64,000 nt of DNA, taken from NCBI GenBank assembly GCA_024372625.1, contig CP099605.1, positions 806,001-870,000 of the forward strand, written 5' to 3'. The notes below the pieces were generated by a model that was not told the DNA's origin, made no database searches, and saw nothing but the letters and a program-made list of their open reading frames with translations. Positions 14,703 to 58,168 of the stretch are shown here, piece by piece (positions within the stretch are counted from its first letter, which is position 1; the number at the start of each line of letters is the position of its first letter). The position numbers and the translations under genes are program-made. This stretch comes from Comamonadaceae bacterium OTU4NAUVB1. Its GTDB lineage: Bacteria; Pseudomonadota; Gammaproteobacteria; Burkholderiales; Burkholderiaceae_C.

Positions 14703-15194
14703 ATGCCGAAGAAGACCATCCTCATCGCCGCCGCCGTGCTGGCGATCGCCGCCGCGAGCGGCTGCGCCGACCTGCCGCGCCCGCACATGCCGGGACCGGC
14801 CATGGGAGCCACCGGCACGCCGGCCGCCACCCAGGCCGTGACCGCCGCCGCCGAGCGCCTGCGCCTCGCGATGATCGACCCCACGCCGGCCGCGCTCGGC
14901 GCGCTGGTGGCCGACGACCTGAGCTACGGCCATTCGGCCGGCCGCGTCGACACCAAGGCCAGCTTCATCGCCGACCTGATGGACGGGAAGTCCGATTTCG
15001 TGACCCTGGTCATCAGCGACCAGACCGTGAAGGTGGTGGGCGACGCGGCCATCGTGCGCCACACCCTCACGGCCGACACCAACGACGCCGGCAAGCCCGG
15101 CAAGGTCGCCATCAAGGTGCTCGGCGTGTGGCAGCGGCAGGCCGACGGCGCCTGGCGCCTGCTGGCGCGTCAGGCGGTGCGCCCGCCGGTCTGA
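14703..15194 (+). CDS. Lipoprotein with DUF4440/NTF2-like domain
   Basis: This 163-residue protein has a lipoprotein signal (ILIAAAVLAIAAASGC, lipid-modified Cys near residue 21), a Pro-rich linker and an NTF2-like DUF4440 domain (about residues 45-160). The conserved words are LVADDLSYGHSAGRVDTKASFIADL and WQRQADGAWRLLARQ. NTF2-like folds bind small ligands or act as simple enzymes; no specific role can be assigned. It follows the TctC-like gene by 43 bp with GGAGA upstream. Its last 25 bases overlap the end of the convergent osmoprotectant gene. Confidence 0.8.
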   Translation: MPKKTILIAAAVLAIAAASGCADLPRPHMPGPAMGATGTPAATQAVTAAAERLRLAMIDPTPAALGALVADDLSYGHSAGRVDTKASFIADLMDGKSDFVTLVISDQTVKVVGDAAIVRHTLTADTNDAGKPGKVAIKVLGVWQRQADGAWRLLARQAVRPPV

Positions 15195-16795
15195 CGCCGG
15201 CGCCGGGCGGCGAGCCACGCACCGGCCTCGAACAGCAGTTCGCTCGCGATCGCCAGCGCGGCGGCCGGCAGCGCGCCGGCCAACAGCAGCTGGCGGTCGT
15301 TGAGCGCCAGCCCCGTGACGATGCGCTCGCCGAAGCCGCCCGCGCCGATGAAAGCCGCGATGGTCGCCGTGCCGATGGCGATCGCCGTGGCCGTGCGCAC
15401 GCCCGCCACCAAGGTCGGCAGCGCGATGGGCAGCAGCACGAAGCGCAGGTTCTGCGCGCGCGTCAGGCCCAGCGCGATGCCGGCCTGGCGCACGCCCTGG
15501 GGCACCTCGCCCAGCCCGGTGACGGTGTTGCGCATGATGGGCAGCAGCGCGTAGAGCGTGAGCGCGATCAGCGCGGGCAGGGTGCCGATGGCGCCCAGCG
15601 CGGAGATCAGCACCGCCAGCAGCGCCAGCGACGGCACCGTCTGCAGCAGGCTCGCGACGCCCAGCGCCAGCGCCCGCCAGCGCGCGTGCGCGAACACCGC
15701 CACCGCCACCGGCACGCCGATCAGGACCGCCAGCCCGACCGCGACGGCCACCAGCAGCAGGTGCTCGCGCGCGAGCCGGCCGAGGTCGGCGCCGAACAGC
15801 TTGGCCGCGAAGCCGCGCGGGGCCTGCGACGCCGCGCCACCGGCGAGGAAGTCGCGCGCGATGGTGTCAAAGGCCGCGCCCTGCAGTTCGGCGCGCGCGT
15901 TCATGGCGATCATGGCGCGCTCGTCGATGCGGCCTTCCAGCGTGCGCAGCGCGGCCCAGGCGGCCGGGTGGCGCGCGGGCAGGTCGAGCCGGTGCAGCAG
16001 CACGGCGTCGTAGCGCGGGAAGTAGGCCCGGTCGTCGCGCAGCACGCGCAGGCCGAGGTGGTCGATTCGCGCGTCGGTGGTGTAGATGTCGATGACGTCG
16101 ATGCGGCCGGCGCCGATGGCGTTGTAGGCCAGGCCATGGTCGATGCCCACGGGCTGTTGCGCGAGACCGTAGCGCGCGGCCAGCCCGCGCCAGCCGTCGG
16201 CGCGGCCGATGAACTCGTTGGACAGGCCCAGGCGCAGCGCCGGGTGCGCCGCGAGGTCGGACAGCGTGCGCACGCCCAGGCGGTCGGCGTCGGCCGCGCG
16301 CATCGCCAGGGCATAGCCGTCGTTGAAGCCCAGCGGCACCGCCACGCCCAGGCCGAGCGGCGCGAGCGCGGCGTTGAGCGCCTCCGGCGCGAGGGCGGCC
16401 GCGTCCGTCGCGCCGCCCTTGAGGATCTCCAGCGCGATGGTGCCGGTGTACTCGGCATAGACGTCGATGGCGCCGGAGCGCAGCGCCTCGTGGACGATGG
16501 CCGTGTTGCCCAGGCCCTGGCGCAGCACCGGCGGCGCCGTCGTCCGCGCGGCCGCGGTCTGGGCCATGACCTCGGCCAGGATGTACGACTCGGTGAAGCG
16601 CTTGGAGCCGATGCGCAGGGGTCCGGCGTCCGGGGCGGATGGGGTCTGCGCGAGGCACGACAGGCCGCACATCGCCAGCAGGACGATCGCGAGCCGGCGC
16701 GCGAACCCGCCCGCCCCCGTGCGCCACCGGGCGGGACGCACGCCGGGCACCGGCGGGGACGGGGCGGGTGACGAGGCGGGTGACGGGGCGGGCAT
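15170..16795 (-). CDS. Osmoprotectant (glycine betaine/choline-type) ABC transporter: fused binding protein and permease
   Basis: This 541-residue chain starts with a basic leader and signal-like helix (RRLAIVLLAMCGLSCLAQ, about residues 33-50). An OpuAC/ProX-type binding domain follows at about 58-300 (IGSKRFTESYILAEV, EYTGTIALEILKG, GLSNEFIGRADGW, DIYTTDARI). A permease domain is at about 320-530 with five or six helices and the inner-membrane loop IALGLTRAQNLRFVLLPIALP. The binding domain comes before the permease. No ATPase gene of this system is seen in the window, so it must be encoded elsewhere. The order of domains differs from the permease-first OpuFB layout. Confidence 0.85.
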   Translation of the reverse strand: MPAPSPASSPAPSPPVPGVRPARWRTGAGGFARRLAIVLLAMCGLSCLAQTPSAPDAGPLRIGSKRFTESYILAEVMAQTAAARTTAPPVLRQGLGNTAIVHEALRSGAIDVYAEYTGTIALEILKGGATDAAALAPEALNAALAPLGLGVAVPLGFNDGYALAMRAADADRLGVRTLSDLAAHPALRLGLSNEFIGRADGWRGLAARYGLAQQPVGIDHGLAYNAIGAGRIDVIDIYTTDARIDHLGLRVLRDDRAYFPRYDAVLLHRLDLPARHPAAWAALRTLEGRIDERAMIAMNARAELQGAAFDTIARDFLAGGAASQAPRGFAAKLFGADLGRLAREHLLLVAVAVGLAVLIGVPVAVAVFAHARWRALALGVASLLQTVPSLALLAVLISALGAIGTLPALIALTLYALLPIMRNTVTGLGEVPQGVRQAGIALGLTRAQNLRFVLLPIALPTLVAGVRTATAIAIGTATIAAFIGAGGFGERIVTGLALNDRQLLLAGALPAAALAIASELLFEAGAWLAARRRRQTGGRTA

Positions 16796-41438: not shown

Positions 41439-42625
41439 CGCCCGAGCTGCTCCGGCTGATCGCCGCGCAGGTCTGCCTGCACGCCGCCATGACCGGCACA
41501 CGGCTGGCCGCGCCCTTGCTGGCGTTGCAGCAGGGGTACAGCGCGGCGGCGGTGGGCGTGCTGCTGGCGTTGTTCGCGCTGACGCAGGTGTTCCTCGCAT
41601 TGCCGGCCGGCCGCTACGCCGACCGCCACGGGCTGCGGCGGCCGCTGGCCATCGCGGTCGCGGCGGCCGTGCTGGGCGCCGCGCTGGCGGCGGCGTTCCC
41701 GGTCTTCCCGGTGCTGTGCCTGGCGGCGCTGCTGACCGGCGGGGCGACCGGCATCGCGGTGATCGCGCTGCAGCGCCACGTCGGGCGGGTGGCGCAGAAC
41801 CCGACGCAGCTGCGCCAGGTCTTCAGCTGGCTGGCGATCTCGCCGGCGGCGGCGAACTTCGTCGGACCGTTCGCCGCCGGCCTGCTGATCGACCACGCGG
41901 GCCGCGCGCCGGCCGACCTGCCGGGCTTCCGCATCGCCTTCGGCGTGCTGGCGCTGCTGCCGCTGGCGTGCTGGCTGCTGGCGCGCGGCACGCGCGAGCG
42001 TCCGAGTCCGCCGCCGCCGCCGGGCACGCCGAAGCCGCGCGCGCTCGACCTGCTGCGCCAGCCGATGTTCCGGCGCCTGCTGTTCGTCAACTGGCTGCAG
42101 TCGGCGGCCTGGGACGTGCACACCTTCGTGCTGCCGATCCTGGGGCACGAGCGCGGCCTGAGCGCCTCGGTCATCGGCGCGCTGCTGGGCGCCTTCGCCA
42201 TCGCCGCGGCCGGCATCCGGGTGGTGCTGCCGCTGGTGGCCTCGCGATTGAACGAGCGGCAGGTGATCGCGGCGTCCAACGTGGTGACGGCGGGGGTGTT
42301 CGCGGTCTACCCGCTGACGGGGTCGGCGCTCGGCATGGGGGCGTGCTCGGTGGTGCTGGGCATCGCGCTGGGCGCCGTCCAGCCGATGGTGATGAGCATG
42401 CTGCACCAGATCACGCCGCATGCGCGCCACGGCGAGGCGCTGGGATTGCGCGTGCTCACGCTCAACGCGTCGAGCGTGGCCATGCCGATGCTCTTCGGCG
42501 CGGCTGGCGCCTTCATCGGCGTGGCCGGTGTCTTCTGGGTCGTGGGCGGCGTCGTGGCGCTGGGAACGCGCGCGGTCGGCGGGCTGCGGGTGCCGCCGCC
42601 CGCCGAGGGGACTCAGAGCTTGTAG
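41435..42625 (+). CDS. Major facilitator superfamily transporter
   Basis: This 396-residue membrane protein has 12 hydrophobic helices, a loop 2-3 motif A (PAGRYADRHGLRRPL) and many Ala/Leu/Val-rich segments. The first helix carries QVCLHAAMTGTRLAAPLLAL. No motif identifies the substrate. The GTG start overlaps the rmuC stop by three bases. The last 13 bases overlap the end of the LOG gene on the other strand. Confidence 0.85.
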   Translation: MTPELLRLIAAQVCLHAAMTGTRLAAPLLALQQGYSAAAVGVLLALFALTQVFLALPAGRYADRHGLRRPLAIAVAAAVLGAALAAAFPVFPVLCLAALLTGGATGIAVIALQRHVGRVAQNPTQLRQVFSWLAISPAAANFVGPFAAGLLIDHAGRAPADLPGFRIAFGVLALLPLACWLLARGTRERPSPPPPPGTPKPRALDLLRQPMFRRLLFVNWLQSAAWDVHTFVLPILGHERGLSASVIGALLGAFAIAAAGIRVVLPLVASRLNERQVIAASNVVTAGVFAVYPLTGSALGMGACSVVLGIALGAVQPMVMSMLHQITPHARHGEALGLRVLTLNASSVAMPMLFGAAGAFIGVAGVFWVVGGVVALGTRAVGGLRVPPPAEGTQSL

Positions 42626-57606: not shown

Positions 57607-57660
57607 TTCCCGGCTGACACGGGCCGGCCGCACCGCCCGGTGCGATCGGCCCGCCCAGCA

Positions 57661-57712
57661 AAAAGCCCCCAGGAACCGTCGCCATGCGGCGACATTTCCT
57701 GGGGGCTTTTTT
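57661..57712. terminator. Bidirectional terminator between GlsB and tRNA-Leu
   Basis: A 15-base outer stem (AAAAGCCCCCAGGAA/TTCCTGGGGGCTTTT) encloses a smaller stem (GTCGCC/GGCGAC). T runs flank both ends, so it can stop the GlsB transcript on the plus strand and the tRNA-Leu transcript on the minus strand. Confidence 0.88.
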
Positions 57713-57717
57713 CGTCT

Positions 57718-58027
57718 TGGTGCCCGAGGCCGGAATCGAACCGGCACGCCTTGCGGCGGGGGATTTTCTTACCACTTCGGCTTTCGCCGCCCCCGTGACG
57801 GGTTCGTGGTCTGGAGCACGCCTTCACCTTGGTCTTTCGACTTTAGGTGCCCGCCGTCTGCTCTCTACACCTTCCCCGGGCCTTTCGGTCCGGGGCTTGG
57901 CTCGGTATTAGCTCGGACTCGCGTCCAGGGCCTTCGCCGAGTTTGACGGGCTTCACCTCGGGAATTTCTTCCCGAGGGCTCAAATTTGGTCTGAGTCCCC
58001 TGCGTCTACCAATTTCACCACTCGGGC
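57718..58027 (-). tRNA. tRNA-Leu (CAA) interrupted by a group I intron
   Basis: The two halves of one tRNA-Leu are separated by 225 bases. The 5' exon (58027-57993) is the acceptor strand GCCCGAG, D arm TGGTGAAATTGGTAGACGCA and anticodon stem GGGGA plus loop CTC. The 3' exon (57767-57718) is AAAA, anticodon stem TCCCC, long variable arm CGCC-GCAA-GGCG, T arm GCCGG-TTCGATT-CCGGC, acceptor CTCGGGC, A and encoded CCA. GCCCGAG pairs fully with CTCGGGC, and GGGGA with TCCCC. Joining the exons gives the loop CTCAAAA, anticodon CAA, for UUG codons. The long variable arm and D loop confirm leucine. Confidence 0.9.
57768..57992 (-). other. Group I self-splicing-type intron in the tRNA-Leu anticodon loop
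   Basis: The 225-base insert ends in G (omega-G, 57768) and carries the conserved core of tRNA group I introns (IC3-like). Elements in order: internal guide TTTGAGCCC pairing with the 5' exon; P2 with a 9-bp stem CCTCGGGAA/TTCCCGAGG and GAAA loop; GTCAAACTCGGCGAAGG; CTAATACCGAGCCAAGC; AAGGTGTAGAGAGCAGACGG (P7 and guanosine-binding region); P8 CACCTAAAGTCGAAAGACCAAGGTG; the second P7 strand GTGCTCC; and P9 with GGCGAAAGCC. No endonuclease gene is inside. The position, after base 34, is the one used in cyanobacterial tRNA-Leu introns. Confidence 0.88.
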
Positions 58028-58168
58028 TGGAACGCAATTCTCCTGTTTCACCACGCTTCCGGAAGGCCCGATACGGATATCCGGCCGAAGAAGCGCAGCC
58101 GAAAATTATGGCACAGTGCTCCGGCGCCAAGTTGAGTTTCCACAACGCTTTTTCGAACGGACGACGAG

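Follow-up and report, generated by a model that had tools for sequence, protein, structure and literature searches.

The stretch of 64,000 nucleotides analyzed here (the window) harbors a tRNA-Leu(CAA) gene that is interrupted by a group I intron and located on the minus strand at positions 57718..58027. The explanation that best accounts for the data as a whole, and which we consider very likely, is that this gene gives rise to a working tRNA-Leu(CAA) by self-splicing, that introns of its kind had one origin from a tRNA-Leu(UAA) intron, and that they have spread in part on integrative elements that use the anticodon loop as their target.

The tRNA-Leu(CAA) gene was missing from the standard ARAGORN run on the window. 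When introns were allowed, ARAGORN called a tRNA-Leu with the anticodon CAA and an intron of 225 nt. The 5' exon of 35 nt (57993..58027, minus strand) has C34 as its last base, the intron occupies 57768..57992 (minus strand) with a terminal G at 57768, and the 3' exon of 50 nt including CCA (AAAATCCCC...ACCA) lies at 57718..57767 (minus strand). The joined exons form an 85-nt tRNA with the anticodon loop CTCAAAA, and they match, with 100% identity, the uninterrupted gene for this tRNA at the same cysM-side locus of the congener G028. The exons are contiguous at exactly this junction in 34 of the 36 congeners compared, and all 21 of these uninterrupted loci that were run through ARAGORN were called as uninterrupted tRNA-Leu(CAA); in the two remaining congeners, G001 and G032, an element breaks the native gene at the junction. 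The insertion lies between bases 34 and 35 of the tRNA, which we take to be the cyanobacterial-type tRNA-Leu intron site. Because group I introns require a terminal G, the boundary after C34 is settled despite a one-base A ambiguity. At 225 nt, the intron is too short to contain an endonuclease gene. A promoter-like stretch, GCACTGTGCCATAATTTT (58102..58119, minus strand), which is mostly kept among the aligned congeners, is located upstream of the gene. A GC-rich hairpin followed by a T run (57660..57707, minus strand), terminator-like by eye, is found directly downstream, and a cysM-like gene with PF00291 (58169..59071, plus strand) serves as a marker of the native tRNA-Leu(CAA) locus. The initial annotation, which gave no strand, had proposed a tRNA-Leu gene with anticodon CAA, split after base 34 by a group I intron with a final G, whose exons would join into a tRNA. 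These proposals were confirmed by ARAGORN, the congener alignment, and the core model and structure described below; the annotation had missed the interrupted UAA gene, the clade of CAA introns, the island setting and the C-G pair at the splice site. Elsewhere in the window, ARAGORN called a 94-nt tRNA-Ala(GGC) at 15118-15211, which is unsupported by the Rfam tRNA model and probably false.

A match to the Rfam model Intron_gpI (RF00028) had been set beforehand as a test of the intron assignment, and the outcome was negative: no match was obtained in the window at the gathering cut-off or in the genome at E ≤ 0.001, and RF00028 was not one of the 14 models listed when a 551-base stretch was searched at E ≤ 10. 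This Rfam model is insensitive to the lineage of the window intron. Because it gave no match, we built a model of the core, R1, from 15 tRNA-Leu(UAA) introns of other genomes, with CAA introns and the window genome (G000) excluded. Searched over the 64 kb at E ≤ 10, R1 gave a single match, to the catalytic core in the P3-P8 region (57802..57950, minus strand), with 144.4 bits and an E-value of 1.4e-35, which excludes a chance match.

The structure drawn by hand from P1 to P9 contains standard pairs only in the window intron, with one A-C mismatch in P1 left unpaired. P1 (57977..57997, minus strand) is formed by the exon bases GACTC (57997-57993) and the guide GAGCC (57981-57977), with the A-C mismatch at its second position, and its splice-site pair as drawn joins C34 (57993) with the G at 57981 on the minus strand. 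P3 (57849..57951, minus strand) pairs 57951-57945 with 57855-57849 and is pseudoknotted with P7 (57814..57863, minus strand), which pairs 57863-57859 with 57818-57814 and which we take to be the guanosine-binding helix. Both helices were assigned from structure and covariation. In the 15 UAA introns (alignment A1, 15 of the 17 UAA rows of other genomes), every P3 and P7 cell is paired, four P3 pairs carry changes on both sides, and six rows show a switch in two P7 pairs (GC to CG, and CG to UA). In an alignment of 35 introns (A2, 35 of the 57 available rows), 94.7% of 1887 cells are paired and double changes are seen in 24 of 54 pairs; none of 500 shuffles was as high on any measure. Sliding the partners reduced pairing to 30-46%, a control that loses force because the window sequence itself had served for drawing the structure. 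The window intron combines a P3-P7 pseudoknot core supported by covariation with a terminal G and guide pairing across the 5' splice site, as found in group I introns, and it is presumably IC3-like.

The usual U.G pair at the 5' splice site is absent from the window intron and from the other 27 CAA rows: over the 35 aligned rows, the pair is C-G in 28 (the CAA rows, window included) and U-G in 7 (the UAA rows). The C is explained by the CAA anticodon, which forces a C at the splice site, and the guide base remains G. The large genome scan required the guide TTGAGC, so that the G partner was forced in those rows; searches free of the guide found CAA introns in G000, G001, G032, G243 and G342 only, all with G. 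Barfod and Cech, as well as Doudna, reportedly worked on the U.G splice-site pair, and introns with a C.G pair at this position are said to have been treated by Hur and Waring in 1995. The C-G introns described here provide natural material for testing why U.G is conserved. In a tmRNA intron survey (PMC11915505), the usual rule is U with G, and 15 of 883 introns have C at position -1, paired to A.

A CAA-intron pattern applied to the species genomes matched at least 119 stretches. Of the 119 listed, all of which were scanned, 88 proved to be tRNA-Leu(CAA) genes whose introns measure 220-252 nt, so that a CAA host is not the oddity for which the initial annotation had taken it. The other 31 of the 119 listed comprise 20 uninterrupted tRNA-Leu(CAA) genes, many from Spirochaetes, nine chance matches, and two (L090 and L110) that look intron-bearing and are cut by the stretch end. 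All searches together yielded at least 88 distinct CAA introns, nearly all proteobacterial, with Burkholderia, Bordetella, Cupriavidus, Comamonas, Rhodanobacter, Polaromonas and Candidatus Vallotia among the hosts of the matches listed; one of the 88 comes from a 4.8-kb contig in a bin labelled Mycobacterium, possibly misbinned. The 88 listed distinct introns all end in G, and their joined genes regain an intact CTCAAAA loop. In a quick maximum-likelihood tree of 118 introns, the 88 CAA introns fall on one side of a branch with an SH-aLRT value of 84 and are nested among UAA introns. The tree included 118 of 121 distinct introns (L220, L221 and L234 were omitted for doubtful boundaries); 27 of 168 ARAGORN intron calls were left out as lacking TAGAGA, and L207, L208 and L225 were given hand-corrected boundaries. 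Judged from this sequence tree, the CAA introns appear as a moderately supported clade among the UAA introns, and a single origin from a tRNA-Leu(UAA) intron, followed by spread across families, is most likely.

Other tRNA genes were encountered in these surveys. G016, of the same genus, carries a tRNA-Thr(UGU) gene interrupted by a group I intron of 229 nt (L082, 9915-10219), which groups with UAA introns on the tree, and a tRNA-Thr-like piece adjoins this gene. A Burkholderiales bin (L128) holds a tandem of tRNA-Leu(UAA) and tRNA-Leu(CAA) at 827-1153 and 1415-1734, both with introns, which come from different tree branches. About 20 tRNA genes, including an intronless tRNA-Leu(CAA), are packed into about 4 kb in G015 (L080, 1844-5969).

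The context of the CAA intron is most complete in the congeners G001 and G032. In both genomes a break in the anticodon loop separates the halves of the native tRNA-Leu(CAA), leaving the 5' half on its own. A complete intron-bearing tRNA-Leu(CAA) follows 191 nt after the broken half, and the native 3' half is found ~67 kb farther, beside a tyrosine integrase. Pfam analysis of the G032 element identified VirB8, CagX/VirB9, TrbL/VirB6, VirB4-like and VirD4-like proteins and an integrase with PF00589, to which the G001 integrase is 100% identical. Because VirB/VirD4-type proteins are encoded, the G032 element looks conjugative. Both loci thus display a broken half, an intron-bearing gene, conjugation genes, an integrase and a displaced half, as in a tRNA-Leu integrative element. 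G001 and G032 are identical over the 226 bases that precede the intron-bearing gene and contain the broken half, whereas their host flanks farther out are alike at 936 of 1274 positions (ungapped), which indicates that the intron-bearing gene belongs to the element. Over 1500 bases upstream, L186 (Variovorax sp. UMC13) is the same as G001, so that G000 presumably falls in the database genus of this Variovorax. A tRNA-Leu(UAA) with the same element left end is present in G032 and G015.

Parts of this layout recur across other genomes. Among the 88 listed distinct CAA genes with 300 nt or more of upstream sequence, 29 have a broken host tRNA-Leu 5' half there, with scores of 31-70 against a best score of 26 in 295 mononucleotide shuffles; the other 59 of the 88 listed upstreams contain no broken half. 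The distance is 212-292 nt in 26 of the 29 and 41-102 nt in L127, L129 and L189. Three more CAA upstreams were too short (<300 nt), L174 among them also having a broken half. Among UAA upstreams, the broken half was seen in 2 of 20. The left junction reads CTC/AAAA in 27 of 30 CAA rows, and the broken half is followed on the element side by AAAAATAGG or AAAAACAGG in 21 of the 30; this element side is common across rows, and the host halves differ by host. We used the G032 integrase to search 27 genomes with broken halves, representing 26 of the 30 CAA rows and L186, which is identical to L077 over the 1500 bases upstream (L073, L127 and L129 were left out). A relative at E<1e-150 was found in 21, and the other six, all bins or uncultured organisms, gave weak integrase matches only. 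In 17 of the 27, the integrase has a displaced tRNA-Leu 3' half next to it, with the right junction CTCAAAA in 17 of 17; the ten fetched stretches with no displaced 3' half are those of the six weak-integrase genomes and of G870, G874, G877 and G881, which have a strong match. Once joined, the host halves were called as tRNA-Leu(CAA) in all 17 cases, with the acceptor stem paired at 7 of 7 positions in 16. The control made from halves of different hosts is a weak one, with 115 of 272 wrong pairs also reaching 7 of 7 in the acceptor stem, because many hosts share this stem.

Elements were also sought without demanding an intron. The integrase search of 399 Burkholderiales genomes at E ≤ 1e-100 gave 12 matches in 9 genomes, four of them beside a displaced tRNA-Leu 3' half (the CAA and UAA elements of G032, the UAA element of G816, and G303). 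An intron-bearing replacement gene is present in the first three. In G303, where the match is close to the edge of a contig, an intact gene without an intron and a displaced half were seen, but no replacement. The remaining eight matches (59-64% identical) have no tRNA-Leu half. Two tRNA-Leu 5' halves located ~200-250 nt apart were found in two of the 101 genomes searched in the genus (G001 and G032) and in two of the 399 searched in the order (G032 and G229), and the second copy is always intron-bearing in these three genomes. Five of the six elements recovered in this way carry the intron, the CAA elements of G001 and G032 being near-identical and the sixth being that of G303; an uninterrupted replacement gene was seen in none of the six, a small sample.

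A phage origin was considered and rejected. Scans of viral contigs gave 0 matches for the element left junction, 6 viral matches to the CAA-intron pattern included none that is intron-bearing by ARAGORN, and none of 8 matching phage records matched over 80% of the query. About half of the query is matched by the intron-like stretches at 409169-409322 of an uncultured 595-kb phage (LR756511.1) and at 41865-42005 of Gordonia phage Daredevil (NC_048021.1). Acidovorax phage AP1 (OM049504.1, 49099-49148) carries a 98% copy of the 3' half only of tRNA-Leu(CAA), which is what ordinary attP restoration would need. Among plasmids, 1286 records matched the query, 1279 of them at 60-80% identity; of the 40 listed, the four records examined are UAA introns, two of them after correction of the ARAGORN boundary. 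The element left end, searched against plasmids at 'near' sensitivity, matched 3 records over 6% of the query only. Two of these four are resistance plasmids in which an intron-bearing tRNA-Leu(UAA), missing from the annotation, lies close to aac(3)-IId (L207, 3995-4293 of NC_004464.2; L208, 3995-4295 of NZ_CP139688.1).

The window gene itself now resides at the native locus, with cysM as its neighbor and the promoter-like stretch common to congeners, and the alignment places ~55 extra bases before it. Neither hallmark of the tRNA-Leu integrative elements is seen at this locus: the 330 nt searched contain no broken half (the score of 18 falls within the null), and G000 has no integrase relative at E ≤ 1e-100. 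Two candidate remnants were rejected, namely GTGGTGAAA, ~27 nt upstream of the gene, as a broken-half relic (it is the candidate with the score of 18) and the extra upstream bases as an element end (best 27 vs a shuffled maximum of 23, unconvincing). The window copy may come from an integrative element, and the gene may be the scar of an element since lost; exon-repeat recombination would leave just such a gene. That the intron instead reached the native gene with no island involved, through reverse splicing, gene conversion or descent, falls only slightly short of an even prospect. The native cysM locus with its retained promoter-like stretch, the exons identical to those of G028 and the absence of a broken half agree with such a route. 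However, the uninterrupted site in 34 of 36 congeners argues against simple inheritance within the genus, the introns closest in sequence among the congeners searched are element-borne (G001 and G032, 90% identical over the gene), and the intron leaves no room for an endonuclease gene.

In the predicted splicing of the window intron, the guide GAG would pair with the exon CUC, a P7-bound guanosine would attack after C34, and the freed C34 would attack after the terminal G, so that CUC would be joined to AAAA and the 7-base anticodon loop restored. The same loop is the core common to both element ends, CTCAAAA. The intron lies inside it (CTC^AAAA), and as a result the replacement gene lacks the core in its DNA: CTCAAAA is absent from the DNA of 86 of the 88 listed distinct CAA genes and restored in 88 of 88 when the exons are joined. 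The integrase would recombine within CTCAAAA and thereby break the host tRNA-Leu gene, and the element would supply its intron-bearing copy as the replacement tRNA. Replacement DNA without CTCAAAA would escape the integrase, and this would be the benefit of the intron to the element. We propose tentatively, and with somewhat less than even confidence, that the intron acts as DNA-level camouflage against the integrase, the tRNA being remade in RNA, and that doubly interrupted hosts, G000 among them, would be immune to such elements. An explanation that is as likely within error, and to which we give the same qualified credence, treats the intron as a neutral passenger: elements would have taken any tRNA-Leu at hand, with integrases and tRNA introns both favoring the anticodon loop. 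Introns in this loop do occur at loci with no visible element (59 of the 88 listed upstreams, the window included), and the CAA introns are one clade, so that one pick-up could explain the CAA cases. Against a passenger, the UAA elements of G032, G015, G229 and G816 carry a UAA intron, which extends the association to both isoacceptors, and five of the six elements found blind to the intron bear one (two being near-identical), with no replacement seen in G303, although this sample is small.

Both tRNAs for the UUR leucine codons are affected in G000. Its tRNA-Leu(UAA) gene (G000:C3:1292816-1293175; L002, 1501-1860) is interrupted by a 273-nt intron. The two intron-bearing genes are 73% identical, and their introns stand apart on the intron tree. 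The tRNA-Leu(UAA) gene is located 1.45 kb from a tRNA-Cys, with a J-domain-like gene, recognized by eye, between them. No further tRNA-Leu(CAA) or tRNA-Leu(UAA) was found in this genome (98.78% complete; one of the searches covered 40 tRNAs, perhaps not all). Because both genes are interrupted, both UUR-Leu tRNAs are splicing-dependent, provided that the 98.78% complete genome hides no copy. The initial annotation had suggested that splicing would be needed for UUG decoding if the gene were the sole CAA isoacceptor. The absence of a second CAA gene in our searches agrees with the first part of this suggestion, but UUG could also be read by tRNA-Leu(UAA). UUA therefore needs splicing of the UAA intron, and UUG needs splicing of at least one of the two introns. 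It is highly improbable that the window gene has decayed, with a C-G intron that no longer splices and UUG read by tRNA-Leu(UAA): the C-G pair in place of U.G and the missing RF00028 match would fit, but every drawn pair of the window intron is standard, the 88 listed distinct introns, those of Candidatus Vallotia symbionts included, have a terminal G and an intact CTCAAAA, and the UAA gene of G000 is interrupted too.

These results reveal a large family of tRNA introns overlooked by the standard ARAGORN run and by Rfam. Carrier genomes may be scored as tRNA-deficient, and the islands may escape tools that seek an intact tRNA plus a fragment. Protection of the integrase target would be a concrete selective advantage of tRNA introns in bacteria, and the intron-bearing replacement tRNAs on integrative elements are a wider setting worth following. 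Neither a group I intron in tRNA-Leu(CAA) nor a replacement tRNA with an intron came up in a brief literature search.

Earlier related work reportedly includes that of Reinhold-Hurek and Shub in 1992, and a gammaproteobacterial tRNA-Leu(UAA) intron is said to have been described by Vepritskiy in 2002. The cyanobacterial-type tRNA-Leu(UAA) intron shares with the window intron the tRNA family and the general helix plan. Its host is the UAA isoacceptor, whereas the window intron is proteobacterial, interrupts a CAA gene and has C-G for U.G; unlike the cyanobacterial-type introns, its relatives are carried by integrative elements. Introns in tRNA-Arg(CCU) occur in Azoarcus and Agrobacterium. Proteobacterial tRNA-Ile2(CAU) introns are reported from Acidovorax and Burkholderia (PMC8450103). 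The tRNA-Arg(CCU) and tRNA-Ile2(CAU) introns are likewise small group I introns of proteobacterial anticodon loops, but they reside in other tRNAs and belong to other tree branches than the CAA introns. The tmRNA introns of the survey (PMC11915505) resemble those described here in being small and in occupying a tRNA-like gene targeted by islands; they differ in their T-loop site and in pairing C with A, where the CAA introns pair C with G. The tRNA islands of the Islander collection (PMC4383910) likewise have a tyrosine integrase, a class with anticodon-loop crossover and a displaced tRNA fragment. In the Islander islands, the tRNA fragment at attP restores the host gene (PMC4383910), whereas the elements described here bring a whole second gene with an intron and leave both host halves broken.
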